DNA of 38,988 bases from a virus, in IMG/VR virus record IMGVR_UViG_3300009285_013578, positions 1-38,988 of that record. The stretch is one strand, 5' to 3'. Within the stretch, counting starts at the first letter, position 1; each line of letters starts with the position of its first letter. Shown one piece after another: positions 6,191 through 34,664 of this stretch. The translations under genes and the position numbers were made by a program. A model generated the notes under the pieces. It was not told the origin of the DNA. It searched no databases and worked only from the letters and a program-made list of their open reading frames with translations.

Positions 6191-6199
6191 TGTTATAAT
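6191..6199 (+). promoter_or_regulatory. Extended -10 promoter, leaderless start for the packaging operon
   Basis: TGTTATAAT with the TATAAT box at 6194-6199, ending exactly 6 nt before the ATG at 6206. Start of transcription is predicted at or next to the A of the ATG. No convincing -35 box; the TGn extension compensates. Confidence 0.65.
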
Positions 6200-6205
6200 A
6201 ATTTT

Positions 6206-6757
6206 ATGGGAATGATAGGTTTCATATCAACCAACAAGCTTATGACTTCGCCGCACGCGGTGGAAATATTGCGTGCCTACAACGAAATATTGCTCCGTGA
6301 CGGTAAAGTCAACAAGCTGAAATTTTATCGCGATGTTATTCTGCCGAAAATTCCGGAATACGATCAAGGTTCTTGGTATTCGTTTTTAAAACGCCAGCAC
6401 GCGAAGCTTGGATCCGCAGCCGCGTCATTGCCGGTTCCAACCGTTAACGATATTGAAAAAAATACCGAACTGGACGCGATGCAAGACGTTATCGTTGCCA
6501 ACGATGAGGCCACGCAATCCGGTGTCAAGTACGCTCTAAATATTGGAGCAAAATTTTATAAAAAATTATGGAAAAAATATACTGAAACACCCGACTTGCT
6601 TACGGAAGTGGAGAGAAGAATTTTGTCTGATTCGTTGTTTAAAGCGATGAAAGCCCAGGACTCGCGCATTCATGCTCTTGGCAAGGTGCGCGAAGATAAT
6701 CGCGAGCAATATAAATTTGACCGCGCCTTTCAGAGCGCGGCCGGAGAAGATTTTTAA
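6206..6757 (+). CDS. Putative small terminase subunit or packaging-associated protein
   Basis: A 183-residue, mostly helical protein directly upstream of the large terminase, separated by 4 nt. By position it may be the small terminase subunit, which recognises phage DNA. The N-terminal half (AVEILRAYNEILLRDGKVNK and following) could form a helix-turn-helix-like unit, and the C-terminal half is highly charged (KFYKKLWKKY). No signature motif proves it. ATG at 6206 is chosen over an upstream TTG because it follows the extended -10 box by 6 nt. An ATG at 6212 is also possible. Confidence 0.5.
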   Translation: MGMIGFISTNKLMTSPHAVEILRAYNEILLRDGKVNKLKFYRDVILPKIPEYDQGSWYSFLKRQHAKLGSAAASLPVPTVNDIEKNTELDAMQDVIVANDEATQSGVKYALNIGAKFYKKLWKKYTETPDLLTEVERRILSDSLFKAMKAQDSRIHALGKVREDNREQYKFDRAFQSAAGEDF

Positions 6758-6761
6758 TGTT

Positions 6762-8531
6762 ATGGGAAGAATAAGAACCAAGGAAACCAACGCCAAAATT
6801 TCTCGGACGCTTCTTGAAAAAGGACTTTCCAAAGAGCAGATTGAATTTCTTGATCTTGTCAGAACCGGGAAAAAAGACCCGATATTTTTCGCGGAAAATC
6901 TTTTGGACATAAAACTTCATGACGGGCAGAAGCTGTGGCTATGGATGACGACGAGAACGCAGATCGACAAAGCGTATGAGCTTGGTCTGCGGCTTAATGA
7001 TGAACACCGCAAGCTATGGGCGAACCGGGAGGAGTTCGAGGAGTTGATAAAAAGGAATCCGGACTCATTGAAGAATCTTTTGATTCCGAGCAACCGGTGG
7101 GGTAAGACGCTTTGCACTTCCGTAAAGCATCTTTGGTATGTTTTTTATAAAGTCGGAGTCAGGGGGAATTATGAACAGAAGTGGGCGGTGCGGTGCGGGA
7201 CGCTGAATCTTTCTCCGCACTCGAATCAGTGTCAGGCGGCTTATGATTTTATTCTGGATATTTTATCCTCGCAGTTCGTTTATACGTATGACGGAAAATC
7301 TTACGGGAATAAATGCAAGATAGAGGATTTTTATGTTTCGGACAATAAGCAGAAACGAATGATTATTTTTAAGAACAATACTTTTTATCGGTCCATTCCC
7401 ACCGGTGAGGACCAAGCATCGTCATTGGCCGGAAATCCGTATCTTTATATTTCGTATGATGAGGCGGCCCAATCGCTCCATTTAAAAGCGGAACTGCCGG
7501 CGAAGATTATGAGCCGATTGATTGACTTCGGCGGTCCGCTGGATTTAGTTTCGACTCCGGAAGTCGACAAGCCCAGCCACCAGTATTTTTTTCACATCGC
7601 CAAACTCGGGCTTAAAGGAGAAGATGGTTGGTGGACCTTCCAGGGAAGGATCACCGACAACATTTTTTTGGGCGAAAGGGAAGTTCGGCAAATTTCGGAA
7701 GCGATCAGGCTTACCGATCCGATGAAATACCGCCAGGTTGTTTTCGGAGAATTTATCACCACCGGCAAAAAGATGTTTGACACGATTTTGATTGAGCGCT
7801 TATGGGATTCGGATAAGCCGGACATGCCGAAATACGAGCATAAGTATCTGGTGTGGGCCGACTGGGGATTCGCGGACACCGGCGACCCGACCGTTTTTTA
7901 TGTTCTCGATTATACGGAACTCTTAAACGAAAAAATTCCCGCGCATTTGCGCAAGATCCGCGTTGCATATCGCGAAGCAATCCGCGGCGGTTCTCCGTTC
8001 GCGGTTATGGCCCGGGCTAAAATGCTGCAGCGCGAATGGAATGGCGCGCTCTTCGGCCACGACTCTTCTTCGATGGGCGGAGTGATTATAAAGAAGATGC
8101 TCCGCGAAATGGAGATGTCGAACATAATCGACTTTACCGGAATGGGCGGCCAGAAGCAGGATATGCTTTTCTGCTTATTGAAGGTCATGACCGAGAACCG
8201 GCGCGCGGAAATGGCAGAAGACGGCAAGGTAATTGAAAAGAATCCCGATTTCGGCCGCTTACGCTCCTACTACATTCCCGAACTCGAGGACCAGATGGGT
8301 AATTACCAATACAATCCGGACAAGGGCGTTTCCGACAAGCGCTTGGAGCAAGATGACGTTATGGCTCTTGGCATGGGCATTTGGTATTTGGAGCGGAAAA
8401 TAATGAAATCCCAGATTAAAATGGTTGATTTCAATCCCCTGGCGCCGACATTGGATACGATATTCTCGGAAAAGTCGGCCCGGTCCCTGCATATGAAAAA
8501 CATAACTATTCCTGAGAAGAGGATATTCTGA
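6762..8531 (+). CDS. terL: Large terminase subunit
   Basis: A 589-residue packaging motor: an N-terminal ATPase drives DNA into the procapsid and a C-terminal RNase H-like nuclease cuts the concatemer. The Walker A variant PSNRWGKT is at residues 109-116, Walker B YISYDEA at about 229-235, and the coupling motif LVSTPE at 262-267. Acidic residues of the nuclease are visible in WADWGF (D367), FGHDSS (D434) and EQDDVMAL (D531, D532). The frame is open for 30 codons further upstream, inside the preceding gene, but ATG at 6762 fits the junction. Its TGA stop doubles as the TG of the next promoter. The length fits the family. Confidence 0.93.
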   Translation: MGRIRTKETNAKISRTLLEKGLSKEQIEFLDLVRTGKKDPIFFAENLLDIKLHDGQKLWLWMTTRTQIDKAYELGLRLNDEHRKLWANREEFEELIKRNPDSLKNLLIPSNRWGKTLCTSVKHLWYVFYKVGVRGNYEQKWAVRCGTLNLSPHSNQCQAAYDFILDILSSQFVYTYDGKSYGNKCKIEDFYVSDNKQKRMIIFKNNTFYRSIPTGEDQASSLAGNPYLYISYDEAAQSLHLKAELPAKIMSRLIDFGGPLDLVSTPEVDKPSHQYFFHIAKLGLKGEDGWWTFQGRITDNIFLGEREVRQISEAIRLTDPMKYRQVVFGEFITTGKKMFDTILIERLWDSDKPDMPKYEHKYLVWADWGFADTGDPTVFYVLDYTELLNEKIPAHLRKIRVAYREAIRGGSPFAVMARAKMLQREWNGALFGHDSSSMGGVIIKKMLREMEMSNIIDFTGMGGQKQDMLFCLLKVMTENRRAEMAEDGKVIEKNPDFGRLRSYYIPELEDQMGNYQYNPDKGVSDKRLEQDDVMALGMGIWYLERKIMKSQIKMVDFNPLAPTLDTIFSEKSARSLHMKNITIPEKRIF

Positions 8532-8537
8532 TATAAT
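8529..8537 (+). promoter_or_regulatory. Extended -10 promoter overlapping the terminase stop codon
   Basis: TGATATAAT, with TATAAT at 8532-8537. The terminase stop TGA supplies the TG extension. The gap to the portal ATG is 9 nt, so at most about 3 nt of leader is expected. Confidence 0.5.
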
Positions 8538-8546
8538 TAAATTGAT

Positions 8547-10244
8547 ATGCCGCTTTCTAAAGAAAAAATGACCGATAAAGAAAGGCGCCAATTCGAATTT
8601 GATTTGGTTAAGGAATTTACGCAAAATAAATTCGAGACCAAGCGCGACCTTTCTTTACGGGTTAACGGAGTTGCCGCCCGCCACGGCTCTTCCGGTTATC
8701 AGTTTGCCGGCTATACGGTTCTTGAAAGATTTTATCGCGGCGACCAATGGGATCATAACGAGCCGCCCGGAGCTTCTCAAAAGACCGACAATTACTGCGC
8801 TGTCATTGTAGACAATCTTTCTTCGCTTATTTTTGACGATATTCCGGAAATCAATTGTCCTACCGATGACCCTACGGACGATCTTCTTGAATTGAAGGCG
8901 GAGATGAAAGAAAAGATTATTCGCAAAGTATGGGAAGACAATGACTTTGAAGTTGAGTTCGATGACTGGGCCAAGAACGGTTCGGTTTATGGAGATGGTT
9001 TTTTGAAGGGACCGTGGATGGAAAAAGTTGACAAGATGGGACGTCTTATTTCTCCGGATTCTCCGGGGCAATGGAAGATCCGTTTCGCGCACGTAGAAAA
9101 TCCCGGTTCAATTCGTCCTATTTTTGAGGACGATCAATATAAAAAACTTCACGGCTTTATTCATACGAACAGAATATCCGTTGCGAGGGCGCAGAAACGT
9201 TACGGAAAACTGGCCAAGGCGAAAAATATTACCATTGAACCTTCTTTGCAATCAACCGCGGAAAGCCGGGTAGATCCGGCATCAAATGTTCCTATGGTCA
9301 ATATAGACGAATACTGGACCGATGAAGCCATGTCTGTTTTTATTAACGACAAACTTCTCGATTATTATTTCCATAACTGGGGATTCGTGCCATTGCGGCA
9401 CGTGAAAAATATTTATGTTCCCAATCATCCGTACGGAAAGTCTGACCTTGAAGACGCTCTTGATCCCCAGCTCTTTCATAACAGGGTCAATAACGACCTG
9501 GCTAATTTGCTTAAATGGATTTCTTCAGTGAACTTGTGGGGCAAAAATCTTGAGGGCATGCAGGCGCTTGTAGCCGGCTTGTCGCGTATTTATTCCCTGC
9601 CGGAGGACGGCGAAATCCATTCATTCGAAAAAACCGGAGATCCGTACATTACCAATACGTTTGTGACCCAGCGCCGTTCCGCGATTATAGAAATTACTGG
9701 AGTTTCTGAGGCCATGCTTTCTTCTTCACAGGTGGCGGCCGCTTCCGGGCGCGCGCTGGCCCTCGCTTTCCAAGGAACGATTCGTAAACTCAGTCCCAGG
9801 ATTAAGCGTTATCGCTCCGCGCTGCAAGAATTAAACCGGAATATTTTGAGATTGGTTGAGCTTTATTATCCGCAAATGGAGATAATTATTGAAGGCGATT
9901 ATCGGAACAATGTTTATCTTCCTTCGACTCTACTTCGCAATATTATTGACACAATAAATAAATTCCAAAGCGGTCTTATATCTCAGGATACCGCTATGCG
10001 CGAGGCCGGCGTGAACCAGCCGAAACTCGAACAAAAATTGATGAGGAAAGGATTAATGGATCCGATTCTCGGACCGCAAGTCGCGCGCCAACCGGCGCTT
10101 TTGCCAAGATTATCTGAGGGTCAAAATCAACCCGGCGAACAGCCGAATCCACAGCCCGGCAATGCTCCGGCCGCTTCGCAAGCCGGCGCGGTCGCGGCTC
10201 AAAACCAGCAGTCGGCTGGCGCGGCTCCTGCGGTAGTAGAATAA
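8547..10244 (+). CDS. Portal protein
   Basis: A 565-residue protein in the portal position right after the large terminase. Portals form the dodecameric ring at one capsid vertex through which DNA passes and to which the tail attaches. The N-terminus has the family-like segment GYTVLERFYRGDQWD, followed by aspartate-rich loops and a long helical region (RLVELYYPQMEIIIEGDY and neighbours). The helical stem and crown region includes QVAAASGRALALAFQGTIRK. The C-terminal 60 residues are low-complexity, rich in proline, glutamine and alanine. Assignment rests on order, size and family-like sequence. Confidence 0.85.
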   Translation: MPLSKEKMTDKERRQFEFDLVKEFTQNKFETKRDLSLRVNGVAARHGSSGYQFAGYTVLERFYRGDQWDHNEPPGASQKTDNYCAVIVDNLSSLIFDDIPEINCPTDDPTDDLLELKAEMKEKIIRKVWEDNDFEVEFDDWAKNGSVYGDGFLKGPWMEKVDKMGRLISPDSPGQWKIRFAHVENPGSIRPIFEDDQYKKLHGFIHTNRISVARAQKRYGKLAKAKNITIEPSLQSTAESRVDPASNVPMVNIDEYWTDEAMSVFINDKLLDYYFHNWGFVPLRHVKNIYVPNHPYGKSDLEDALDPQLFHNRVNNDLANLLKWISSVNLWGKNLEGMQALVAGLSRIYSLPEDGEIHSFEKTGDPYITNTFVTQRRSAIIEITGVSEAMLSSSQVAAASGRALALAFQGTIRKLSPRIKRYRSALQELNRNILRLVELYYPQMEIIIEGDYRNNVYLPSTLLRNIIDTINKFQSGLISQDTAMREAGVNQPKLEQKLMRKGLMDPILGPQVARQPALLPRLSEGQNQPGEQPNPQPGNAPAASQAGAVAAQNQQSAGAAPAVVE

Positions 10245-10248
10245 AACT

Positions 10249-17842: not shown

Positions 17843-17873
17843 TAAGTTATACACAGACAAAAGTTGTAAGTTG

Positions 17874-17882
17874 TGATATAAT
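17874..17882 (+). promoter_or_regulatory. Extended -10 promoter, leaderless start for scaffold and capsid genes
   Basis: TGATATAAT with TATAAT at 17877-17882, ending exactly 6 nt before the ATG at 17889. No clear -35 box. It gives the capsid unit its own promoter. Confidence 0.65.
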
Positions 17883-18627: not shown

Positions 18628-19794
18628 ATGGCCTTAATAGATCCAACACAAGCTGCGTCATTTGATCAGTCCGCAGTATATAAATTAGATCTTTCAGAGG
18701 TTCTTGCGGCCATTCTTTTGGACGACACGGATTTCGTTTCGATGATCGGCATCAGCAATGAAGTCGCTACTCAAACGAAACATTCGTGGGTTGAGGATCT
18801 CTTGAACGCGACAACCGCACTTCAGTCAGGTGGTACAGCGGCCCAGATGGCTCTCGGTACTACTTCCGGCACGGTTCTCCGTTTGAGTTCTTCTCACATT
18901 ACTCGTTCAAAGATTACCGCAGGCACGATTCTGAAAAATAAGCTTTCGGGTAAAACCGAAGTCGTTCAAGTAACTGCCGTAAGCAGCACATCTGCTACGG
19001 TTACTCGTGGTTATGGCGGAACCTCCGCTCAAACTCATGCCGCAGCTGCGACTTGGGAAATAATCGCGAATCCCCGACCGCAGGGTATGGCGGGACCGGC
19101 AGACGAATCAACAACTCGTACTTTGGTCCACAATTTCACGCAAATCTTTTCTAAGGGCGTAAAAGTTACAGGAACAGCCCAATCGATAGATCACGCGGGA
19201 ATTTCAGCCGAAGACGACTATCAGATTGATCTTCGTTTGCGCGAGTTAAAGAGAGAATTGGACCGTACCGCGATTATGGGAGTTCGCGCTCCTAACGATG
19301 TCGGCGCCTCTACCTATGGAACAATGGGAGGCTTGATCGAATTCGTTGGTTTTATCGGCGCGGGCAACAACAACGGTGTCGCTGAAACTCTTACTCCGAG
19401 TGTTCTTAACACAATGATTAAGGATTGCTGGGACGACGGGTTATTCCCGGACACAGTTCTCGTTGGCGGAGTCCAGAAACAGAAAATATCCAGCTTTGAC
19501 CAGGAATTCAGACGCTCAACGCTTGATACTCGCAGAGCCGGGTATACCGTTGAAGAATTCGTTTCTGATCTCGGTATCAATTTGAAAGTAATCGTTGATC
19601 GCTGGGTTCCGAACGATGTCTGCGTTGTGTTTGATTCGGCAAAAGTAAAACTTATGCCGCTCAAAGGACGCGCCTTCTTCCTTGAGAAGTTGGGCAAGAC
19701 AGGAGATTCCAACGATTGGCAAATTGTTGGCGAATATACGATGGAAGTTCGAAACGCGGACGCCGCTGCGTACCACTTCAACTTGAAGCAATAG
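18628..19794 (+). CDS. Major capsid protein, SU10/DUF5309 type
   Basis: A 388-residue protein matching the SU10-like major capsid family (HK97 fold). Family-typical segments are TRTLVHNFTQIFSKGVKVTG, DDYQIDLRLRELKRELDRTA and a C-terminal EYTMEVRNADAAAYHFNL. An insertion near residues 75-130 (KITAGTILKNKLSGKTEVVQ and beyond) with a YGGTSAQTHA turn may form a surface-exposed domain. It builds the icosahedral shell. It is preceded by the scaffold candidate 19 nt away and followed by a repeat-rich fibre gene. Confidence 0.88.
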   Translation: MALIDPTQAASFDQSAVYKLDLSEVLAAILLDDTDFVSMIGISNEVATQTKHSWVEDLLNATTALQSGGTAAQMALGTTSGTVLRLSSSHITRSKITAGTILKNKLSGKTEVVQVTAVSSTSATVTRGYGGTSAQTHAAAATWEIIANPRPQGMAGPADESTTRTLVHNFTQIFSKGVKVTGTAQSIDHAGISAEDDYQIDLRLRELKRELDRTAIMGVRAPNDVGASTYGTMGGLIEFVGFIGAGNNNGVAETLTPSVLNTMIKDCWDDGLFPDTVLVGGVQKQKISSFDQEFRRSTLDTRRAGYTVEEFVSDLGINLKVIVDRWVPNDVCVVFDSAKVKLMPLKGRAFFLEKLGKTGDSNDWQIVGEYTMEVRNADAAAYHFNLKQ

Positions 19795-20647: not shown

Positions 20648-21694
20648 ATGAAAATACTAATTGGAAATCAAACATTATCATTACTGGCCGGAACAGAGAC
20701 GGCTACCTATACATTAGCCAAACAGCTTAAGAAGCTCGGCCATAAAGTTCAGTGCTTCAGTCCCGAACTTGGAATTATCTCCGAGGAATTGGAGAAGGAA
20801 GGAATAAAATCCTTTAACCAAATTCTTACTTCGGGAGTGAGGCCTTTTTCTTTTGTCTTTGAGGAGGAGCCGGATCACCAATACGATGTGATTATCGCGA
20901 ATCATTGGCCTGTCGTAAAATATCTTCGCGAGCAATTTCCGCGAACTCCCATAATATCCACCATTCATGGAGTGATGCACAAACTTGATGACGGAAAAGA
21001 TGCCCCGGAACATCCCGCGATGGATGCCGGCGTTAATCAATTTGTCTCGGTCTCGGAAGAAGTCCAGGCGCTTCTTCAAAAAGAATATAATATTGAGTCG
21101 GTTGTTGTCAGAAATTTCTTCGACACGGATTTATTTAAAGAAAAGAGAAAAGTATCCAAAGACAAGCCCGGGCAATTTTTGATAAATTCAAATTATAACG
21201 ATGCGAATGATCCGGATGTTCAGATTATCCGGGAGGTGGCGAAACATTACGGAGCCAAATTTACTGCAGTTGGCCAGAATTTTGTTCAAACTTTTGACGT
21301 TAAAAAAGCTATTGATGATTCGGATGTGGTAGTCGGTATGGGTCGGAGCGTACTTGAGGGCGTTGCCATGGGCCGGCTCGGAATCGTTCACGGAAGGTGG
21401 GGAACTGCCGGCGTTATTCATGAAGGGAGCGCGGAGAAAATCCGCAGCGTTAATTTCTCGGGTCGCGATTCCGAAGGAAAGGTTATGTCAGCACAAGAAT
21501 TGATTGAGCAGATTGACCAGTTTTATAATCAAAAAACGATTGAATGGGGCAAGCAGTATATAAAGCGCGAACATAATGTAGTTTTTGCGGCAGAAATGTA
21601 TCTTAATCTCGCGCGCGAGCTTACCGGGCAAAATATAGCGCGGCCAGTCGAGCCGCTGATAAGAAAATATCGCAGAGCAAAAGATGTTAAATAA
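20648..21694 (+). CDS. Glycosyltransferase, family 4-like (GT-B fold)
   Basis: A 348-residue enzyme expected to move a sugar from a nucleotide donor to an acceptor. The N-terminal GT4-type Rossmann domain has GTETATYTLAKQLKKLGHKV, the usual donor-loop start, and IISTIHGV. The C-terminal domain has ESVVVRNFFDTDLF and the nucleotide-binding region DSDVVVGMGRSVLEGVAMGR, in which the E of VLEGVAMG matches the conserved GT4 glutamate. It opens an island of sugar- and methyl-transfer genes embedded in the virion module. Likely acceptors are virion proteins or host surface glycans. No signal peptide or membrane segment is seen. Confidence 0.8.
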   Translation: MKILIGNQTLSLLAGTETATYTLAKQLKKLGHKVQCFSPELGIISEELEKEGIKSFNQILTSGVRPFSFVFEEEPDHQYDVIIANHWPVVKYLREQFPRTPIISTIHGVMHKLDDGKDAPEHPAMDAGVNQFVSVSEEVQALLQKEYNIESVVVRNFFDTDLFKEKRKVSKDKPGQFLINSNYNDANDPDVQIIREVAKHYGAKFTAVGQNFVQTFDVKKAIDDSDVVVGMGRSVLEGVAMGRLGIVHGRWGTAGVIHEGSAEKIRSVNFSGRDSEGKVMSAQELIEQIDQFYNQKTIEWGKQYIKREHNVVFAAEMYLNLARELTGQNIARPVEPLIRKYRRAKDVK

Positions 21695-22454
21695 ATTACC
21701 TAAAATTATCGGGATTGGCAAAATGCGAAACGAATCGCATATTATCTGGGATACGTTGGAGAATTGGAAAAATATCTGTACCGGAGGAATATATTTATAT
21801 GACGATGTTTCTACCGATAATACAGTTGAGATAGCCCGCTCTCATCCGATTGTAAAAGATGTGATTTTGGGCGATTTTTGGGATCCTGATCGAGAAAAGT
21901 CCGAATGGTTTAACCGACAGATGGTGCTTATTCGGGCACAACAGGAAGCTGATGAAAATACATGGTTCGTTCTATTCGATATGGACGAGCATATTTATAA
22001 TTTCACGCAGTACGAACTCTTTGCGCAGGAGCACGTGAAAGCGATTGCGTGCCGGCTTTGGGATTTTTATTTAACCCCGGAGGACGTTGATTTGTCTTAT
22101 AAGAAGCGGGAATGGGTCGGGCCGGAGTATCGGACAATAATATTTTTCTTCAGAAATAATCCGGCGTTGCGATATCATTTGCCGGATCAGCGCGAAGTAA
22201 CGCTTCCGGAGTATGGTGAGATACCAGTACACGGATCAATTAAGCACTTTGGTAAGGGATTTTCAGTAAAACAATATGAGAATACTTGTAACTATTATAT
22301 AAAATATTTTCCGCGCTATTCTGATAAATGGAGAAAACGAGTTGGTAAAGCGATCCATACAAACTATGAATCGGACTTTGGAAATAAACTTGTTAAATGG
22401 AAAGATCGTATGCAGGGATTTTCACTTGAAACACAAATCTATGGACAAAATTAA
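21684..22454 (+). CDS. Glycosyltransferase, family 2-like (GT-A fold)
   Basis: A 256-residue enzyme of the GT2/Glyco_tranf_2_4 kind. It opens with IIGIGKMRNESHIIWDTLEN, typical of this group, then DDVSTDNTVEIARSH. The metal-binding D-x-D motif is in LFDMDEH (about residues 98-104). Late aromatic residues (WVGPEYRTIIFFFR) shape the acceptor side. It overlaps the preceding glycosyltransferase by 11 nt, so the two are coupled. The last 14 nt overlap an HNH gene, which may have displaced a longer C-terminus. Donor and acceptor are unknown. Confidence 0.75.
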   Translation: MLNKLPKIIGIGKMRNESHIIWDTLENWKNICTGGIYLYDDVSTDNTVEIARSHPIVKDVILGDFWDPDREKSEWFNRQMVLIRAQQEADENTWFVLFDMDEHIYNFTQYELFAQEHVKAIACRLWDFYLTPEDVDLSYKKREWVGPEYRTIIFFFRNNPALRYHLPDQREVTLPEYGEIPVHGSIKHFGKGFSVKQYENTCNYYIKYFPRYSDKWRKRVGKAIHTNYESDFGNKLVKWKDRMQGFSLETQIYGQN

Positions 22455-22914
22455 AAAAGAACATATTGTAAGGTTTTGGTCAAGAGTTAAAAAAACTCAA
22501 GGATGTTGGACTTGGACTGGGGGAAAACACCGTCAAGGTTATGGATTTTTTTATTTTGATAGTGGATCAGAATTAGCTCATAGGGTTTCTTATTTAATAG
22601 AGTTTAAGAAATTTCCTAAAAATAAGTTTGTTTGTCATCATTGCGATAATCCATCATGTGTACGACCATCTCATTTATTTCTTGGAACGCAAAAAGATAA
22701 CATAAGAGATATGGTTAGAAAAGGACGAGCAGCAGACATGGTTGGAGAAAAAAATAGCAATAGTATTCTTACTTATAAAAAAGTTATTGAGTTAAAGAAC
22801 CTTTTAAAATCTAAGAAATTCACCTATAAAGAGTTGGCAAAAAAATTTGGTATTTCTTATGGAGAAGTAAATAATATAGTAAGTGGATATTGTTGGAAAA
22901 ATGTAAAACAATGA
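22441..22914 (+). CDS. HNH homing-type endonuclease
   Basis: A 157-residue HNH_3-type endonuclease, a selfish gene that cuts DNA lacking it. The core is VCHHCDNPSCVRPSHLFLGT followed by QKDNIRDMVRKGR; the two histidines after the first cysteine and the later asparagine fit the active site. A C-terminal helix-turn-helix (FTYKELAKKFGISYGEVNNI) would bind DNA. The base composition is clearly more AT-rich than the flanking enzymes, a sign of recent arrival. It overlaps the upstream gene by 14 nt and the downstream gene by an ATGA. ATG at 22441 is preferred to an earlier ATG inside the glycosyltransferase. Confidence 0.85.
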   Translation: MDKIKKEHIVRFWSRVKKTQGCWTWTGGKHRQGYGFFYFDSGSELAHRVSYLIEFKKFPKNKFVCHHCDNPSCVRPSHLFLGTQKDNIRDMVRKGRAADMVGEKNSNSILTYKKVIELKNLLKSKKFTYKELAKKFGISYGEVNNIVSGYCWKNVKQ

Positions 22915-23387
22915 TTATAGAATTATCCCCTAAAAAAATAGTGCCGGGAAGTTTCACTTGCTGGAACGAACCCGGGCCGGAGGTTGATCTTGTAGTTGAT
23001 TTAAAGAAACTTACTTTTAAAGAAGGGAGCGTTGAAGAATTATATTCGTTCCATATCGTTGACCATCTTTTCGAAAACGAAATAGTGCCGGCAATTTCAA
23101 ATTGGAAAAGTTGTCTTAAAAAAGGCGCGAATCTTTTTATAATTGTTGATAATTTTGAGTACCTCGCGCGCGCGTTTGTTGGCGGGGATATGTCAATAGA
23201 TGAATTGAATTTTAATTTCACTCATCCTACGAACGTAACCCGTGATAATTTACTCAGATATTTCAAAGAAGCGGGATTCAACGAAGACGCGGTAATTGAA
23301 TGGAATAACGGAATCAGGACTCCCAAAAACGAAATAATCGTTCCGCAGCAGCATTTCGAAATGATATTTTCGTCTAAAAAACCATGA
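22911..23387 (+). CDS. Methyltransferase-like protein lacking the SAM-binding glycine motif
   Basis: A 158-residue protein that resembles the second half of class I methyltransferases: VDLVVDLKKLTFKEGSVEEL, then SWKSCLKKG-like helix and LFIIVDNF. The normal N-terminal motif (DLGCG), which binds S-adenosylmethionine, is missing; the first residues MIIELSPKKIVPGSFTCWNE replace it. It could be a truncated, inactive relative or a specialised partner. The related gene at 25297 keeps the motif. The truncated end lies exactly where the HNH gene was inserted. Overlaps with both neighbours suggest coupled translation. Confidence 0.6.
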   Translation: MIIELSPKKIVPGSFTCWNEPGPEVDLVVDLKKLTFKEGSVEELYSFHIVDHLFENEIVPAISNWKSCLKKGANLFIIVDNFEYLARAFVGGDMSIDELNFNFTHPTNVTRDNLLRYFKEAGFNEDAVIEWNNGIRTPKNEIIVPQQHFEMIFSSKKP

Positions 23388-24481
23388 ATAGAATTCCTAA
23401 AATATTATACATAGCTCGTGACATTGGAGGGTGTGGCTATTTCCGCTGTGAACAGCCGGCAAATTTTATCAAGCGTATGGGGCTTGCGGAAACGGAAGTC
23501 GTGCTGCGTAACGCTTCCCGGGAACAGCTTCTTAGTGCCGATCTCGTTGTCATTCAGGATACCGGTTCTCCCACTGGAACTAAGGCCGCGCAATTCCTGC
23601 TTCAAAATAAAATTCCTTACATAACGGAATTCGATGATTTTGTGCAGCATGTTTCTCCTCATAATATTTATGGCTGGCCGGCCTGGAATCCCGGAACGCT
23701 TTATATTCATCGCGCGATGGAGATGATGCGTTCGGCAATGGCGGTTACGGTATCTACTCCGCAACTCGCGCGCGAATACTTTCCTTACAATCCCACGATC
23801 TACGTCGTGCCGAATTATCTTGACGAAGAGCGCTGGGTAAATCCGATTATAAAAAGGCAGGACAATAAAGTCCGCGTAGGATGGATCGGCGGTAACGCGC
23901 ACGCGGATGATCTTCGCATGGTGGCTCACGTTTTACACAAGCTTGTCAAGGAGGGCAAGGGCAAGGTTATTGTCGAAACAATGGGAATGGCGAAGCAGGA
24001 ACTTGCCGGAGTATTTCCGTTTAGCGAATTCAGCGCCTCTTGCCCGCATTGCGGCTACGAAGGAGAATTGCACAACTTTCCCGGGGAAAGCCAGAACGAT
24101 TATCCGGCTGTTTTGGCCGGTCATGGCTGGGACATTGCCCTGGCTCCGGTTATAAACAACGCTTTCAACAATTGCAAATCCGACATAAAAATCAAGGAAT
24201 ACGCGGCTGCGGGCATTTCTGTCGTAGCTTCGCCCATTGTTCCTTACCGCGAGGCCGCCGCGAGTAATGCACAGGTGGTCTTTGCGGATGGTTTCGAAGA
24301 ATGGTATAATGGTATTAAGGGATTGATTAAAGATCCGGCGCGCAGGGACGAAATAGCCCGGAAGAATAAAGAATGGGTCGCGCAGTACTGGATCCAAAAT
24401 AACGCCCAAAAGATTTTTGAAGTTTATAAACAGGTTCTACAAAAGGCCGAACTTGTTTACGGAAAGAGGAATATGCTATAA
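23384..24481 (+). CDS. Glycosyltransferase, family 4-like (GT-B fold)
   Basis: A 365-residue GT-B enzyme of a kind frequent in phage genomes. The N-terminus has YIARDIGGCGYFRCEQPANF, the start of the acceptor domain. RVGWIGGNAHADDLR begins the nucleotide-sugar domain; APVINNAFNNCKSDIKIKEY carries the conserved KxxEY-type segment with a catalytic-site glutamate. A CPHC pair (about residue 220) lacks a partner pair, so it is probably not a zinc site. The start overlaps the preceding stop by 4 nt (ATGA). The stop codon lies in the promoter of the next gene. Confidence 0.8.
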   Translation: MNRIPKILYIARDIGGCGYFRCEQPANFIKRMGLAETEVVLRNASREQLLSADLVVIQDTGSPTGTKAAQFLLQNKIPYITEFDDFVQHVSPHNIYGWPAWNPGTLYIHRAMEMMRSAMAVTVSTPQLAREYFPYNPTIYVVPNYLDEERWVNPIIKRQDNKVRVGWIGGNAHADDLRMVAHVLHKLVKEGKGKVIVETMGMAKQELAGVFPFSEFSASCPHCGYEGELHNFPGESQNDYPAVLAGHGWDIALAPVINNAFNNCKSDIKIKEYAAAGISVVASPIVPYREAAASNAQVVFADGFEEWYNGIKGLIKDPARRDEIARKNKEWVAQYWIQNNAQKIFEVYKQVLQKAELVYGKRNML

Positions 24482-24482
24482 T
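24474..24482 (+). promoter_or_regulatory. Extended -10 promoter, leaderless start
   Basis: TGCTATAAT with TATAAT at 24477-24482, 6 nt before the ATG at 24489. A TTGTTT lies 18 nt upstream of the box. It overlaps the end of the glycosyltransferase. Confidence 0.65.
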
Positions 24483-24488
24483 AAAAAC

Positions 24489-24767
24489 ATGCTATTAGAA
24501 GTCGCAGTAAGCGGCACAGTCGGGAAACAAACTATCCCGACCACGCAGCAAGCAAAACTTAAGAGAGTGATACTCACTCCCTCTGCCGCGAATCTTACTA
24601 TTAAAATTCGAGACGGTAACGCGTCCGGTGAAGTTGTTTTTTACGCAGTTGCTCCGAGCGCTGCTCCGAAGCGTTCTTATGAATTTAATGCCGAACATAA
24701 GTTTACGAAAGGCATGCACGTAAAGGTCATTGGGGCTGCGAATATCGCGTATCTTGTGCTTGAATAA
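24489..24767 (+). CDS. Small beta-rich protein, possible virion component
   Basis: A 92-residue protein, probably one beta-sandwich (LKRVILTPSAANLTIKIRDG, SYEFNAEHKFTKGMHVKV). ATG at 24489 is chosen, because it follows the extended -10 box by 6 nt; earlier in-frame codons lie inside the preceding enzyme. It has its own promoter in the island and pairs with a second virion-like gene. No enzyme motif is seen. It may be an accessory capsid or fibre protein. Confidence 0.6.
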   Translation: MLLEVAVSGTVGKQTIPTTQQAKLKRVILTPSAANLTIKIRDGNASGEVVFYAVAPSAAPKRSYEFNAEHKFTKGMHVKVIGAANIAYLVLE

Positions 24768-24773
24768 TTAATT

Positions 24774-24782
24774 TGTTATACT
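24774..24782 (+). promoter_or_regulatory. Extended -10 promoter, leaderless start
   Basis: TGTTATACT with TATACT at 24777-24782, 6 nt before the ATG at 24789; TTGTGC lies 17 nt upstream of the box. It is the second such promoter in 300 nt. Confidence 0.6.
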
Positions 24783-24788
24783 AAAAAT

Positions 24789-25277
24789 ATGAAGAACTCG
24801 GGAATAAAAGATAATACAAAAATAAGAGGTTTCTTCCGTCTCAATATTCTTGAGAATGGAAAAATTGTCGGAGATTCCGGATGGCGCGAAAACCAAGTTA
24901 CGAATCTCGGAATCCAGGATTATCTCGTAGATGCCGTATTGGGAAATGCCGGCAATAAAGCCGTAAGTCATATGGCGCTCGGGACCGGTGCCGCTCCGGC
25001 ATCTGACGCAACTTCTTTGTCTGGTGAAATAACTCACGCGGCAGGTTCAAGAAAAGCTGTTTCGACTTCAATAGTGGCTTCGCGGACCGCGCAATTTACC
25101 GCGGCTTTCGCAAGCGCGGATTCATTTGTCACTGCGACCGTTAATATCTCAAACGTAGGATTATTCGAAACATCCACCACGGAAGGCGGAACGATTTTCG
25201 CGGGAAATACCTACGCTTCAAGTTCGCTTGCAACTAATCAAAATGTTAATGTCACGTACCAGATAAGGATATCTTGA
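24789..25277 (+). CDS. Phage virion or tail-fibre-like protein
   Basis: A 162-residue protein of a pattern seen in many phage structural genes. It begins with a beta-rich domain that ends NQVTNLGIQDYLVDAVLG, then GTGAAPASDATSLSGEITHA and NISNVGLFETSTTEGGTIFA. These match the frequent phage motifs of the type GxGTxxPxxxDxxL and ITEAGLF. It probably sits on the virion surface, at a fibre base or capsid. It has its own promoter and is flanked by enzymes, so it could be a substrate of the island. That link is inference. Confidence 0.6.
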   Translation: MKNSGIKDNTKIRGFFRLNILENGKIVGDSGWRENQVTNLGIQDYLVDAVLGNAGNKAVSHMALGTGAAPASDATSLSGEITHAAGSRKAVSTSIVASRTAQFTAAFASADSFVTATVNISNVGLFETSTTEGGTIFAGNTYASSSLATNQNVNVTYQIRIS

Positions 25278-25296
25278 CCTTCTGATTGATAAAAAG

Positions 25297-25815
25297 ATGA
25301 AAGGAAAATTTAATATTCAAAAAGTTCTCAAGAATAAAAATCTTGGAATTTCGCTAGATTTGGGTTGCGGAGCCAACAAGCAAAATGGCTTTGTCGGCAT
25401 AGACGCGCGGCCGCTTCCTGGAGTTGATATAGTTCACGATCTTGAAAAATTCTCATGGCCGTTGCCGGATCGTTGCGCGAGCTTAGCGGTGGCGTCCCAT
25501 TTAGTAGAACACATAAACCCCCATGGCGGAGTTTTTTTGCGTTTTATGGATGAAGTGTGGCGCGTCTTGAAACCGGGCGGAAAGTTTTTGATAGCGACTC
25601 CGTATGCCGGTTCGCAGGGATATTGGCAAGATCCAACTCACTGCAACGGTTGTAACGAGGTAACGTGGGCTTACTTTGATCCGTTGGATCGCAGCGGGTT
25701 CTATAAAATATACAAACCAAAACCATGGAAGATTGTTTCAACCGCTTTCAGCGTTAACGGCAATATGGAAGTTGCGTTGGAAAAACGATTGGAAGACAAA
25801 TCTTACTATGCCTAA
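25297..25815 (+). CDS. SAM-dependent methyltransferase
   Basis: A 172-residue class I methyltransferase. Motif I is intact (SLDLGCGANKQNGFVGID), the acidic residue after strand 2 is in GID, and motif post-I reads VASHLVEHI with VWRVLKPGGKFLIATP following. The C-terminal third (PTHCNGCNEVTWAYFDPLDR) has four histidine and cysteine residues but no clear zinc site. Sugar methylation is a plausible role because glycosyltransferases flank it, and phage glycans are often O-methylated. The substrate is unknown. It overlaps the next gene by 8 nt. Confidence 0.75.
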   Translation: MKGKFNIQKVLKNKNLGISLDLGCGANKQNGFVGIDARPLPGVDIVHDLEKFSWPLPDRCASLAVASHLVEHINPHGGVFLRFMDEVWRVLKPGGKFLIATPYAGSQGYWQDPTHCNGCNEVTWAYFDPLDRSGFYKIYKPKPWKIVSTAFSVNGNMEVALEKRLEDKSYYA

Positions 25816-26608
25816 AAAATTAAAATATAACGGAGAAGCTCCGCGCAATACCAGTGACTGGTCAAAGCGCGTGCTTCTTTTTACTCCTTCCCGAGGACTT
25901 GTCCGGACCGAATGGGTGCAGGCGCGTTACGGACAGATAGTGCCGACCAATTGGTCAATGGTGGAAATGACGCAATTCGTTTCTCCGTACATGCCGATTG
26001 AATATCAGCTTGCGGACGCGCAGAATCTTATGGCGCGGAAAGTCGTCCAAGACGATTATGAATGGATTATTTATATTGAAGACGACAACATAATTCCTCC
26101 GGACACGATTGTCAGGTTCAACAGATACATAAATGAAGGAAAAGTTCCGGTGGTATCGGGATTATATTTCACAAAATCGGATCCTCCCGAGCCGTTGCTT
26201 TATCGCGGCCGCGGAAATTCTTATTTCAGGAACTGGAAAATGGGAGATAAAGTTTGGGTTGATGGTGTTCCGTTTGGCTGCCGGTTGGAGCATGCCGGGT
26301 TAGTTAAAGAGGCCTGGAAGAATTCTCCGGAGTATACGATAGGAAACGAAGTCGTAAGAAGAGTTTTCGAACAGCCGAACCGCATTAATTGGAATAACGA
26401 AAAAGGAGGATATGAAGCCGTAAAAGGCACTACCGACCTTGCCTGGTGCAAGAGAATAATGGAAGAAAAGCTATTCGGCAAGGCCGGTTTTCCGCAATAC
26501 GACAAAAAACAATATCCCTTTCTCGTTGATACCAATATCTTCGTCAAGCATATAGACCAGAATGGCCGGCAATATCCTCTCCAGGATCCAAAGGCGCTGG
26601 GATTCTAA
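25808..26608 (+). CDS. Glycosyltransferase, GT-A type
   Basis: A 266-residue enzyme with the GT-A pattern: LLFTPSRGLVRTEWVQA at the start, NLMARKVVQDDYEWIIYIED with the D-x-D-like EDDN (about residues 95-98), and PVVSGLYFTK. GVPFGCRLEHAGLVKEAW resembles the region that closes the acceptor pocket. ATG at 25808 is used, overlapping the methyltransferase by 8 nt; a longer frame starts inside that gene. It closes the glycan island. The donor sugar cannot be read from sequence. Confidence 0.7.
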   Translation: MPKKLKYNGEAPRNTSDWSKRVLLFTPSRGLVRTEWVQARYGQIVPTNWSMVEMTQFVSPYMPIEYQLADAQNLMARKVVQDDYEWIIYIEDDNIIPPDTIVRFNRYINEGKVPVVSGLYFTKSDPPEPLLYRGRGNSYFRNWKMGDKVWVDGVPFGCRLEHAGLVKEAWKNSPEYTIGNEVVRRVFEQPNRINWNNEKGGYEAVKGTTDLAWCKRIMEEKLFGKAGFPQYDKKQYPFLVDTNIFVKHIDQNGRQYPLQDPKALGF

Positions 26609-26629: not shown

Positions 26630-26638
26630 TGGTAAAAT
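26630..26638 (+). promoter_or_regulatory. Extended -10 promoter with a short leader
   Basis: TGGTAAAAT with TAAAAT at 26633-26638. Transcription would start near 26645, about 33 nt before the ATG at 26678, so this mRNA has a leader, unlike most promoters of this type here. Confidence 0.5.
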
Positions 26639-27892: not shown

Positions 27893-27901
27893 TGGTATAA
27901 T
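27893..27901 (+). promoter_or_regulatory. Extended -10 promoter, leaderless start
   Basis: TGGTATAAT with TATAAT at 27896-27901, 6 nt before the ATG at 27908. No clear -35 box. Confidence 0.65.
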
Positions 27902-28754: not shown

Positions 28755-29390
28755 ATGGCATTTAAAATTGGAAATAAAATTTGTGTTGGTAGAATTCCCT
28801 GGAATAAGGACACGAAAGGAATATGTAAACCCAATTCTGGAAGTTTTAAAAAAGGACATAAAAATAATTATATTTATGTAAATACCGAAGCGCGAAAAGA
28901 AGCCCGTAAAAAGGGTGCTTTCCCAAAAGGACATAAAATAAACTTAGGAAATAAAAATCATTTTGGTTTTAAACATTCTGAAGCAACAAAAGAAAAACTA
29001 AGAAAATTATCATTGCAACAATTTTTGAATGGTATGCCGTTAGAAACAAGAATAAAAATGTCCGGTATTCATAGGGGAGAGAAAGGAGCTAATTGGCAAG
29101 GCGGAATTACTCTTATAAATTCTAAAATCAGAAATTCTTTTGAGTACCGATTATGGCGCGAATCCGTTTTTAAAAGAGATAATTATACTTGTCAGTGGTG
29201 CGGTATTCGCGGGGGATATATTCAGGCAGATCATATAAAGCCATTCGCTTATTTTCCTGAATTAAGATTTGAATTATCAAATGGACGCACTTTATGTCGG
29301 GAGTGCCATAAACTAACAGACAGCTTCGCTTATAAAGCGAAAAAAAATTATGGCCAGCAACGTTCGAACGCGATATCATATAGCTATTAA
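28755..29390 (+). CDS. HNH homing endonuclease with NUMOD3-like repeats
   Basis: A 211-residue selfish endonuclease. The N-terminal half has NUMOD3-like DNA-binding repeats (GFKHSEATKEKLRKLS and neighbours). The HNH domain is C-terminal: RDNYTCQWCGIRGGYIQADH, then RTLCRECHKLTDS, giving the CxxC...H...CxxC layout with D-H as the catalytic pair. The coding sequence is AT-rich compared with both neighbours, so it is probably recent. It sits 1 nt after the adaptor stop, and its 3' end overlaps the nozzle gene by 41 nt. Insertion here separates two genes that are adjacent in related phages by inference. Confidence 0.85.
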   Translation: MAFKIGNKICVGRIPWNKDTKGICKPNSGSFKKGHKNNYIYVNTEARKEARKKGAFPKGHKINLGNKNHFGFKHSEATKEKLRKLSLQQFLNGMPLETRIKMSGIHRGEKGANWQGGITLINSKIRNSFEYRLWRESVFKRDNYTCQWCGIRGGYIQADHIKPFAYFPELRFELSNGRTLCRECHKLTDSFAYKAKKNYGQQRSNAISYSY

Positions 29391-32492: not shown

Positions 32493-32497
32493 AATTA

Positions 32498-32506
32498 TGA
32501 TATAAT
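32498..32506 (+). promoter_or_regulatory. Extended -10 promoter, leaderless start of the lysis genes
   Basis: TGATATAAT with TATAAT at 32501-32506, 6 nt before the ATG at 32513; TTGTTT lies 16 nt upstream of the box. It lets the lysis genes be expressed separately from the tail operon. Confidence 0.65.
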
Positions 32507-32512
32507 AATAAA

Positions 32513-32767
32513 ATGAGCATAGGACCCCGGGAATCAGACCAAAAAGTTGAGTTAAGCGTATTCAACCGGTTGCAATACAAGATTGGCAAAGCCGCGGAAA
32601 CGTATTTCGCGGATCCGGTCCATTATCTTTTTTATGGAACGCTCGGGCTTACGATAGCCGGATTATTTTTTGGAATGGAATTTTCTTGGAAGTTTTATTT
32701 GATATTGGGCGCTTTATGCGGAATTGAGGGCTTTAAATATTACCAAAAAACATGGAAGAAAAAATAA
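32513..32767 (+). CDS. Small membrane protein, holin-like
   Basis: An 84-residue protein with two hydrophobic segments, about residues 35-57 and 59-77, separated by a short turn, and a lysine-rich C-terminus. Its position at the head of the lysis cassette, next to the amidase, suits a holin that opens the inner membrane. No named holin family can be confirmed. The 3' end overlaps the next ATG by 16 nt. Confidence 0.55.
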   Translation: MSIGPRESDQKVELSVFNRLQYKIGKAAETYFADPVHYLFYGTLGLTIAGLFFGMEFSWKFYLILGALCGIEGFKYYQKTWKKK

Positions 32768-32940
32768 TTCAGATTTTAGTGCAAGGAGGATTAGCGAGTG
32801 TGGCTCTTGTTTCACTTTATTTTAACTATAAAATCGTGTCCAATCATATGCAGCACAATACAGAAAGCAACAAAGAGTTGACCAAGGTTTTGGGAGAGCT
32901 TAAAGAATTAATTAAAACGCATATTAAAAAAGATGAATAA
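32752..32940 (+). CDS. Small single-span membrane protein, holin or spanin-like
   Basis: A 62-residue protein with one N-terminal transmembrane segment (about residues 6-29) and a charged helical C-terminus (NKELTKVLGELKELIKTHIK). The layout resembles the BhlA/UviB-type small holins of Gram-positive phages. It overlaps both neighbours by 8-16 nt. It probably helps pore formation or regulates timing. Confidence 0.5.
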   Translation: MEEKIIQILVQGGLASVALVSLYFNYKIVSNHMQHNTESNKELTKVLGELKELIKTHIKKDE

Positions 32941-33436
32941 ACCGGAGGTAATCGTAATCCATCATACAGGCAACAACAACGGATTTGAAATTGATAATGA
33001 CTATCACCGTAAAAAGTGGTTGAAGCAATTCGGCACGGAGTTTAAATCCGAACTCGGTTATTCTATCGGGTATCAATGGTATTACGAAAAGAAAGAAAAA
33101 ATATGGATACAGGGGAGAAACGAATCTGAAGTAGGCGGGCATACGCTTGGCGACTGGAACAAGAAATCAATAGGAGTAGCCCTGGTAGGAAATTACAATG
33201 CTGAATTATTTGAATTTGGTCAGCAACTTGAAGATAAAATAAAAGATATTCGCTCTCGTTGGGGAAATCTCCCAATCAAGACACACGGAGAATTATATAG
33301 CACAAGTTGTCCTGGCAATAATCTCCAAGCGTGGGTAGATGAGTTTAGAAAGAAAGAAAAGCAGATCGGATTATTACAGACCCTTGTTTCCCTGTACCAA
33401 AAATTGATTGAATTATTAACCAAAGGTCGCAATTAA
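32933..33436 (+). CDS. N-acetylmuramoyl-L-alanine amidase endolysin (PGRP/T7-lysozyme-like)
   Basis: A 167-residue zinc amidase that cuts the bond between muramic acid and the peptide in peptidoglycan. It has the family's VIHHT near residues 8-12 (zinc ligand among H10/H11), H118 in KTHGEL and C126 in TSCPG; the H-H-C spacing matches T7 lysozyme closely. A short helical tail (GLLQTLVSLYQKLIELLTKG) follows the catalytic domain and may help membrane or wall binding. No signal peptide, so it depends on a holin. It lies among membrane-protein genes in a lysis cassette. Confidence 0.88.
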   Translation: MNKPEVIVIHHTGNNNGFEIDNDYHRKKWLKQFGTEFKSELGYSIGYQWYYEKKEKIWIQGRNESEVGGHTLGDWNKKSIGVALVGNYNAELFEFGQQLEDKIKDIRSRWGNLPIKTHGELYSTSCPGNNLQAWVDEFRKKEKQIGLLQTLVSLYQKLIELLTKGRN

Positions 33437-33446
33437 ATAAAATATC

Positions 33447-33680
33447 ATGACATATCCATCATTACTTCAAAGTTCGGTAGATTCAAGAAATCTATCACTA
33501 ACGGTCAAGGGTTTCCTTGCTGGTCTCATCCCGCTCGCGCTTTTTGCCAGCCATTATCTTGGCTTTGTGGAAATTAACGAGGGAGACCTTCTGGCGTTTG
33601 TCGAAGCGGCCGGCGCGGTAGTTTCTTCCGCAATGGTTTTGTATGGCGTGGCCCGTAAGATCGCAGTCAAGTTCCGTTAA
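33447..33680 (+). CDS. Two-span membrane protein, candidate holin
   Basis: A 77-residue protein with two hydrophobic segments (about residues 22-41 and 49-68) joined by an acidic loop (VEINEGDLL), and a basic C-terminus (RKIAVKFR). This topology fits a class II holin. It follows the amidase by 10 nt. With two other membrane proteins beside the amidase, which one is the true holin is unclear. Confidence 0.6.
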   Translation: MTYPSLLQSSVDSRNLSLTVKGFLAGLIPLALFASHYLGFVEINEGDLLAFVEAAGAVVSSAMVLYGVARKIAVKFR

Positions 33681-33695
33681 TATTGATTTTAAATG

Positions 33696-33704
33696 TGGTA
33701 TAAT
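33696..33704 (+). promoter_or_regulatory. Extended -10 promoter with a 37-nt leader
   Basis: TGGTATAAT with TATAAT at 33699-33704. Start of transcription is predicted near 33711; the next ATG is at 33748. The leader includes a GTG-initiated 6-codon mini-ORF, probably meaningless. Confidence 0.55.
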
Positions 33705-33747
33705 ATTAAAACGGTGACAGTCGCAGCCGGTTAACTAATTTACTAAA

Positions 33748-33846
33748 ATGGACGAATTAAATAAAGACGATGTTGCTACTCCGGAAGCGCCGGACGCAGA
33801 CGTCCCAGTAGAACCACCGAAGCCGGAAGAAGAACCAGCTGGCTAA
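33748..33846 (+). CDS. Small acidic proline-rich ORF of unknown function
   Basis: A 32-residue protein, strongly acidic and rich in proline (EAPDADVPVEPPKPEEEPAG). It has its own upstream promoter and a terminator just downstream, which argues that it is expressed rather than chance. Disordered acidic peptides can mimic DNA or bind host proteins, but no family is recognised. Confidence 0.4.
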   Translation: MDELNKDDVATPEAPDADVPVEPPKPEEEPAG

Positions 33847-33854
33847 TAAGGCCG

Positions 33855-33909
33855 AAAAAAAACACCCCTCCCCGGGTTTTCATCTTCCCGGGACAAAGGG
33901 GTGCTTTTT
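33855..33909. terminator. Bidirectional terminator between convergent units
   Basis: CACCCCT (33863-33869) pairs with AGGGGTG (33897-33903) and an inner CCCGGG pairs with CCCGGG, with eight A on the left and five T on the right. It serves the plus-strand lysis unit and the minus-strand recombination unit. Confidence 0.8.
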
Positions 33910-33910
33910 G

Positions 33911-34243
33911 TTATCTGCGAGGAATTTGGCTTTGCGGCGCGTCGTATAAATTGACTACGAATTCTCCATCTTCAAGAGCCGCGGTTTCAAAGCCGATATC
34001 CTTTAAATAAATATCGGACCGGCCATTCTTATCAAGGAATTTGCGAAGCTCAAAGAATAAATTTTGCAATGCTACGTTAAGTGTAAGCTCCTTTTTAGCC
34101 ATCACTAAAACTTGGGCATTGTAATCTTCGCGTAGATCTCTCCATTCCTTCGCGGCTTTTTTAAAACCATCGGGAAGGAAAATTGATTTCCCCCCGGACT
34201 CGGAGACGATTTTTGACCAATTTCTTTTTTCTTGATTAAGCAT
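33911..34243 (-). CDS. Protein of unknown function in the recombination unit
   Basis: A 110-residue mixed helix-strand protein with a basic middle (KKAAKEWRDLREDYNAQVLV) and an acidic C-terminal region (FETAALEDGEFVVNLYDA). Its 5' end overlaps the RusA-like gene by 8 nt, so it is the last member of that coupled set, ending at the bidirectional terminator. No family is recognised. Confidence 0.55.
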   Translation of the reverse strand: MLNQEKRNWSKIVSESGGKSIFLPDGFKKAAKEWRDLREDYNAQVLVMAKKELTLNVALQNLFFELRKFLDKNGRSDIYLKDIGFETAALEDGEFVVNLYDAPQSQIPRR

Positions 34244-34649
34244 TTGTAATTTGAATTTCTAACCAATCTTCGTTTTTCTCGACCTTTTCCTGGCCCATAT
34301 GGCCAACATTCTTCTTGTTTTTCTGTTTTGGGAGTGCAACAACCTCGATGATCGTGCGCGCAACGTATTCAGGAGAATCCTCTTTGATAATTTCAAAGGC
34401 AACAAGCGCGTCTTCAAAGCATTTAATAAGATACGAACAGTTAGTGGAATCGAGCGGTTTTGAGCCAAAAACGAATTTATAAAGGATTTGAACTGGGTAC
34501 GATTCAACGCGTTGAATTGGTCTGCAATGCCATCCTGCAAGAGCAAGGATGCTATCTTTAAATTGTTTGCGTTTGGCCCAGTGTACTCCCGCATAAATTT
34601 TGTTTGTTGACTCTTTGTACCCGGTTATGGGAATACGATACGTAATCAT
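34236..34649 (-). CDS. rusA: RusA-like Holliday junction resolvase
   Basis: A 137-residue enzyme that cuts four-way DNA junctions made during recombination or replication. The RusA pattern is seen in STNKIYAGVHWAKRKQFKDS, then LDSTNCSYLIKCFEDAL and IIKEDSPEYVA. D67, E79/D80 and D91 are candidate metal ligands and K76 a conserved lysine; the usual D-x-D-N reads D-S-T-N, as in some other phage relatives by recollection. The size fits (RusA is about 120). The leaderless promoter at 34656-34664 precedes it. Confidence 0.75.
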   Translation of the reverse strand: MITYRIPITGYKESTNKIYAGVHWAKRKQFKDSILALAGWHCRPIQRVESYPVQILYKFVFGSKPLDSTNCSYLIKCFEDALVAFEIIKEDSPEYVARTIIEVVALPKQKNKKNVGHMGQEKVEKNEDWLEIQITNA

Positions 34650-34655
34650 ACTCCC

Positions 34656-34664
34656 ATTTTATCA
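34656..34664 (-). promoter_or_regulatory. Extended -10 promoter, leaderless start (minus strand)
   Basis: Minus-strand TGATAAAAT, with TAAAAT at 34661-34656, 6 nt before the ATG at 34649. The TGA stop of the upstream gene supplies the TG. This shows the same spacing rule on the other strand. Confidence 0.55.

Follow-up and report, generated by a model that had tools for sequence, protein, structure and literature searches.

Extended −10 promoters 6–10 nucleotides before start codons in a phage clade without Shine Dalgarno enrichment: probable leaderless or near-leaderless late units

The DNA considered here, the whole of IMG/VR virus record IMGVR_UViG_3300009285_013578 (38,988 bases, hereafter the window; possibly a fragment), carries extended −10 boxes, TGnTATAAT, that end a few nucleotides (nts) before the ATG of several genes. 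These near-ATG boxes are very probably housekeeping-sigma promoters, to judge from their sequence, serving the first genes of late units whose messages are read leaderless or nearly so. The features described below establish, by sequence and by comparison with relatives, the identity and position of the promoters, and there is good support for transcription starting at or near the ATG. Leaderless initiation, late timing and a host that does not use Shine Dalgarno sequences are what we infer.

In the scheme proposed, the promoters of this tailed phage would be of the sigma70/sigmaA type, with an extended −10 of the form TRTGnTATAAT that a 17-bp spacer separates from a weak TTG-like −35. A 6-nt discriminator would place the RNA start on the A of the ATG, with longer gaps giving leaders of 2–4 nts. 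Several late units (packaging, portal, scaffold/capsid, structural region and lysis) would have such a promoter ahead of their first gene, and the transcripts would be read via a 5′-terminal or near-terminal AUG without a Shine Dalgarno site. Operon-internal genes, which also lack Shine Dalgarno sites, could be reached by translational coupling or through A/T-rich unstructured start contexts. Leaderless bacterial genes with this signature are known; what is new is a phage clade that does not use Shine Dalgarno sequences and employs the signature for several late units. Leaderless phage messages are usually seen as single curiosities, and here they would serve several late units of a clade.

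Position of the boxes and their conservation

An exact TGnTATAAT followed by six nts and ATG occurs five times in the window, where 0.01 occurrences are expected, and no dinucleotide-preserving shuffle of the genome reaches five (0/100). The original prediction had listed seven boxes ending exactly 6 nts before an ATG. All seven are present; five are exact and two are variants, TATACT at 24774 and, on the minus strand, TAAAAT at 34664, and in both kinds the first T of the hexamer stands at −12 from the start codon. Boxes that had been listed with longer gaps, at 8532 (9 nts), 26633 and 33699, were also found, the last two some 39–43 nts before their starts. When TATACT and TAAAAT are allowed, the boxes lying no more than 40 nts before 33 gene starts have gaps of 6, 6, 6, 6, 6, 6, 6 and 9 nts. 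In 5000 shuffles of those 40-nt stretches, the mean number at gaps 6–10 was 0.05 and the maximum 2 (observed 8). The TGnTATAAT strings internal to coding sequence (17146, 24305 and 31877) have no start codon close downstream.

The spacing recurs clade-wide. The window and its close relatives (315 kb; open reading frames (ORFs) of at least 60 codons; strict box TGnTATAAT) contain 64 strict boxes, and the gaps to an ORF's ATG are 6 nts in nine cases, 8 in five, 9 in three, 10 in one and 28 in two. No strict box has a gap of 0–5, 7 or 11–27, nor any other up to 30, and gaps of 6–10 hold 18 of the 64. For 19 permuted arrangements of the hexamer in the same set, the mean number of cases at gaps 5–10 was 0.63 and the maximum 3. 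Among distant capsid relatives (71 loci, 1.03 Mb, 42 strict boxes) there are 0 at gaps 5–10. The G+C of this distant set is 0.51 vs 0.41 for the clade, and the higher value implies fewer boxes but should not alone cut the near-start fraction. Phages lambda, PaP3, TP901-1 and P23-45 likewise have no strict box at gaps 5–10. The count by distance, in the genome, its shuffles and its relatives, thus bears out the original expectation of a spacing tighter than in shuffled sequence.

Individual promoters are retained across considerable divergence. That of the scaffold-position gene (ATG 17889) is found in all seven genomes aligned at the gene, though the protein is only 24–50% identical; its gap is 6 in the window, 10 in R1 (3300009285_000018, a 46-kb relative whose pieces L016–L018 were used reverse-complemented), 8 in L042, 8 in L027, 6 in L028, 6 in L034 and 8 in L037. 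For the 6206 promoter, the orthologues have a gap of 6 in R1 and 9 in L021, with weaker boxes at gaps of 6–10 in L042, L027, L040 and L023. Upstream of the portal gene (8547), R1 carries TAGTATAAT at gap 10, and the promoter is not seen in relatives more distant than R1. The R1 orthologues of 24489, 27908 and 32513 have, respectively, TGATATAAT at gap 9, TGATATAAT at gap 6 and TGGTATAAT at gap 8.

Two of the seven listed sites did not survive comparison as well. The box at 24777 has no counterpart at the R1 orthologue and so lacks support from relatives. That at 34661 on the minus strand lacks a hexamer resembling a −35 at 17 bp, and in R1 the orthologous gene is without a box and has AGGAG ahead of the ATG instead; it was rejected as a promoter and is probably spurious. 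The suggestion that the boxes are the main rule for late genes also proved too broad. Most late genes, including the capsid gene at 18628, 29350 and others, are operon-internal without a box of their own, and among the relatives compared no box precedes the capsid gene or most of the remaining structural genes.

Promoter features, RNA start and absence of Shine Dalgarno signal

The boxes have the look of true sigma70-type promoters, a reading that rests on a −35 peak at 17 bp, the R of TRTG and initiator position, none of which was used for picking sites. Twenty-three promoters entered the −35 and initiator tests; they include orthologues, were chosen for a box near the ATG and are not fully independent. 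Their summed matches to TTGACA come to 60 at spacer 17, whereas the remaining spacers in the range 10–29 give 23–48; two or more of the three letters of TTG are present at spacer 17 in 14/23, as against 0–7 at other spacers. This TTG signal is weak, and it weakens assignment to an 'extended −10 only, no −35' class. The base before the TG, which played no part in site selection, is a purine in 20 of the 23, mostly after a T, giving TRTG.

The initiator is telling with regard to the start of the RNA. Ten of the 11 promoters with gaps of 8–10 have a pyrimidine-purine step at discriminator length 6 (background 0.246), while at lengths 3, 4, 5 and 7 the same promoters show it 0–1 times and at length 8 six times; a simple binomial gives ~7e-6, the sites not all being independent. 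The distance of the initiator is fixed relative to the −10 box, not to the ATG. RNA would therefore start on the A of the ATG where the gap is 6, and 2–4 nts upstream of it where the gap is 8–10. The claim that RNA begins on the start codon is accordingly supported for the gap of 6, where the promoter features predict a start at the ATG, and not for the orthologue gaps of 8–10, with their leaders of 2–4 nts. Strict 6-nt spacing was rejected as a conserved rule, since orthologues and other relatives have gaps of 6, 8, 9 and 10, and 'leaderless or with a 0–4 nt leader' is the better description.

Several points weigh against leaderless reading from these promoters. In relatives 8/12 strict sites are at gaps of 8–10 and so not strictly leaderless, and zero leader length is not kept among orthologues (predicted leaders 0–4 nts). 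Two boxes in the window have leaders of ordinary kind, predicted at ~33 nts for 26633 and ~38 nts for 33699. The limited independence of the 23 promoters counts on the same side, as does the presence of the upstream gene's stop codon within several boxes (e.g. 24474 and 8529), because part of the box sequence is then constrained for another reason.

Shine Dalgarno cores precede 3/56 starts in the window and R1, with a shuffled mean of 3.0, and the original remark that they are almost absent was correct. None of the six gap-6 plus-strand genes has one. Over 239 genes of the clade their frequency is 0.079 in the Shine Dalgarno position vs 0.121 in a control position, whereas for 804 genes of the distant relatives the values are 0.386 and 0.107; in reference phages it is 0.41–0.68. 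Since the motif is at chance in the clade and enriched in the distant relatives, the clade's hosts probably do not select for Shine Dalgarno sites, and the host of this phage probably starts translation without them. A leader of 0–4 nts has no room for such a site.

The clade suggests that its host loads ribosomes without Shine Dalgarno pairing. A more far-reaching proposal is that clade and host together gave up Shine Dalgarno-led initiation, that most late units have 0–4 nt leaders with downstream genes reached by coupling only, and that the 5′-AUG is the main entry of ribosomes late in infection; this may be so, but we hold it only tentatively and lean somewhat against it. The clade would be a natural system for finding how much late phage protein 5′-AUG mRNAs can yield, and TRTGnTATAAT 6–10 nts before ATG, together with Shine Dalgarno sequences at chance, is a genome-wide signature usable in the search for a host.

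Known systems and alternative explanations

Isolated leaderless phage mRNAs are known, such as that of lambda cI. The window resembles this case in that the RNA of a tailed phage would begin at or close to an AUG; it differs in that cI is a single gene in a phage and host that use Shine Dalgarno sequences, while here six or seven units would begin in this way and the genome shows no Shine Dalgarno enrichment. Leaderless initiation in lambda is noted by Zheng et al. 2011 (PMC3160421), who surveyed cellular genomes and read TA-like (TANNNT) signals ~12 nts before the start as marking leaderless genes. The main leaderless groups there are Actinobacteria and Deinococcus-Thermus, and a strong TG extension was reported for Lactococcus (PMC3160421). 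The genes of the window share with those a Pribnow-like box at the same distance, a TG extension as in A/T-rich Lactococcus and no Shine Dalgarno sequence. Unlike those cellular genomes, the group in question is a phage clade, with Shine Dalgarno sequences at chance throughout and leaders of 0–4 nts.

Thermus phage P23-45 has extended −10 middle/late promoters, and its gp39 displaces sigma region 4 from the −35 (PMC7403470). The likeness is a phage class of extended −10 middle/late promoter read by host RNA polymerase. However, strict TGnTATAAT boxes at gaps of 5–10 are missing from P23-45, ~52% of P23-45 starts have a Shine Dalgarno core, and the promoters of the window differ in their weak −35 at 17 bp. 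Nothing was found in the literature on leaderless expression in uncultivated phages, nor on Shine Dalgarno use in Patescibacteria.

A precedent such as gp39 raises the question of whether a dedicated late regulon should be added, with a phage factor taking sigma region 4 off the −35 so that only extended −10 promoters fire late. That the boxes are extended −10 elements and their −35 is weak would suit this, and the weak −35 would make near-ATG promoters resistant to a gp39-like protein. Nevertheless, the −35 that remains at 17 bp is a sign that contact with sigma region 4 still matters, and no anti-sigma or RNA-polymerase-binding phage protein was found, none having been searched for; we consider such a regulon unlikely. 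The word 'regulon' in the original prediction implies a dedicated regulator. The elements belong to the housekeeping sigma factor, and as nothing here needs a special regulator the label is unearned.

Other explanations dispense with promoters at the ATG, or with their significance. One takes the motif to act in translation, as an A/U-rich element of a longer mRNA that binds ribosomes. A clade without Shine Dalgarno sequences does need some other start signal, and the sequence ahead of starts in the window is A/T-rich, but the 17-bp −35 peak, the TG extension and an initiator fixed to the box are properties of a promoter, and genes inside the operons, the major capsid gene for one, are without the motif in all relatives, so that this explanation is very improbable. 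It is just as improbable that the boxes are ordinary promoters with the true RNA start elsewhere, their nearness to the ATG being a by-product of compact gene packing. Junctions are indeed tight, stop codons of upstream genes lie inside some boxes and the 26633 and 33699 promoters have longer leaders; yet the gaps peak at 6–10 with none at 0–5 or 11–27, permuted A/T hexamers give no such peak, and other compact phages lack the spacing. As for chance, or a compositional artefact of an A/T-rich genome, box and junctions are both A/T-rich, but the spacing was equalled in 0/100 genome shuffles and 0/5000 junction shuffles, the hexamer permutations also reject a chance origin, and with conservation in diverged relatives this leaves it next to no probability. 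Promoters for leaderless or nearly leaderless messages are thus the reading we prefer.

Gene content, relatives, host search and neighbouring elements

The features are collected in Table 1. The apparent lysis cassette comprises the genes at 32513 and 32752, the amidase gene at 32933 and the gene at 33447, and the minus-strand genes that converge on the late region lie from 33911 onward.

Table 1. Boxes, genes and other elements of the window
Feature	Coordinates	Strand	Details
Extended −10 TGTTATAAT	6191..6199	+	Exact match; gap 6 to ATG 6206 (small-terminase-position gene)
Extended −10 TGATATAAT	8529..8537	+	Gap 9 to ATG of portal gene (8547); T|G initiator 6 nts past box
Extended −10 TGATATAAT	17874..17882	+	Exact; gap 6 to ATG 17889, scaffold-position gene upstream of capsid gene
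Extended −10 TGCTATAAT	24474..24482	+	Exact; gap 6 to ATG 24489; overlaps upstream gene's stop codon
Variant extended −10 TGTTATACT (TATACT)	24774..24782	+	Gap 6 to ATG 24789; −35 TTGTGC at 17 bp; weaker case
Extended −10 TGGTAAAAT	26630..26638	+	CTGACT at 17 bp; ~39 nts to ATG 26678
Extended −10 TGGTATAAT	27893..27901	+	Exact; gap 6 to ATG 27908; ATGATA-17-TATAAT promoter match 10/12
Extended −10 TGATATAAT	32498..32506	+	Exact; gap 6 to ATG 32513, head of apparent lysis cassette
Extended −10 TGGTATAAT	33696..33704	+	TTAATA at 16 bp; first ATG (33748) 43 nts downstream
TGATAAAAT (TAAAAT variant), probably spurious	34656..34664	-	Gap 6 to ATG of 34236-34649(-); overlaps upstream TGA stop
Terminase large subunit	6672..8531	+	PHROG 2, E=1e-16
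Portal protein	8547..10244	+	PF05133 SPP1_portal, E=8.4e-14
Major capsid protein, SU10 type	18628..19794	+	PF17236, E=1.6e-70; operon-internal, without own box
Amidase endolysin	32933-33436	+	Pfam/PHROGs
Acidic proline/glutamate-rich ORF, 32 codons (MDELNKDDVATPEAPDADVPVEPPKPEEEPAG)	33748..33846	+	Own extended −10 promoter (33699), no Shine Dalgarno sequence
Intrinsic terminator, CACCCC...GGGGTG then T5	33863..33909	+	Separates late region from convergent minus-strand genes

Among records of the annotated phage collection none matched the 14 kb of window DNA tested, and the capsid relatives within that collection are all below 32% identity. The closest relatives are uncultivated contigs, R1 (capsid 90%) and 3300009285_005504 (capsid 72%); about 20 further uncultivated relatives were recovered via portal and capsid.

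Scanning 84,980 species genomes with the capsid gave no relative. An epimerase scan matched a contig (L019, PWPR01000131.1) of a 'Clostridia' metagenome-assembled genome that shares nothing else with the window. It has sugar-modification genes beside a neck/tail-like gene and so looks phage-derived, which makes it poor evidence of a host. Capsid matches occur in 8/398 genomes of that assembly's phylum and are distant only. TGnTATAATN6ATG reaches at most ~8 per Mb in 598 genomes (two phyla, neither of them a known non-Shine Dalgarno phylum) vs 128 per Mb in the window. The highest cellular values were 16 in 2.1 Mb, with 0 for a control pattern (G300), and 8 in 1.0 Mb, with 7 for the control (G541). 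Promoters of Bacteroidota are of a different type, with TAnnTTTG at −7, unlike the TRTGnTATAAT and 17-bp spacer of the window. Because of this difference the Bacteroidota, a large group not using Shine Dalgarno sequences, are unlikely to include the host. The window is like them in being without Shine Dalgarno motifs; their translation is known to proceed without these, with Kozak-like contexts (PMC6847099).

The DnaA-box consensus TTATCCACA occurs 10 times in R1, where a simple count of bases leads one to expect ~0.35, and several of the copies are just upstream of near-ATG promoters. Most relatives have it 1–3 times, and in the window there is just TTATACACA, at 17847–17855. A role as fixed upstream activator sites was rejected, the distance to the promoters varying from 30 to 41 nts and the boxes not being enriched in the window.

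In the stretch 6147–5900 on the minus strand, a near-perfect leftward sigma70 promoter (TTGACA-17-TATGAT, 11/12) has ~200 nts past it a terminator-like hairpin, CGCC..GGCG-T7, without an Rfam match; the window as a whole has no match to an annotated RNA family. The unit may give a short RNA that is not translated, or an early leader subject to attenuation. At the other end of the late region, the ORF at 33748–33846 is below the length of usual gene callers and has a strong terminator downstream.

Within the structural block (20648–26608) and in the minus-strand block (34915–35964(-)) there are glycosyltransferase, methyltransferase-like and GDP-mannose-dehydratase-like genes, as also in relatives; they possibly serve glycan modification of the virion or host surface. 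ORFs like HNH-type homing endonucleases were seen by eye at 22342–22914, 28755–29390 and 35906–36364(-), at positions that differ among relatives. The terminase gene of R1 has, at L006 ~3224–4291, an insertion of ~320–350 codons between conserved halves that the window gene does not have, a candidate intein or homing endonuclease.

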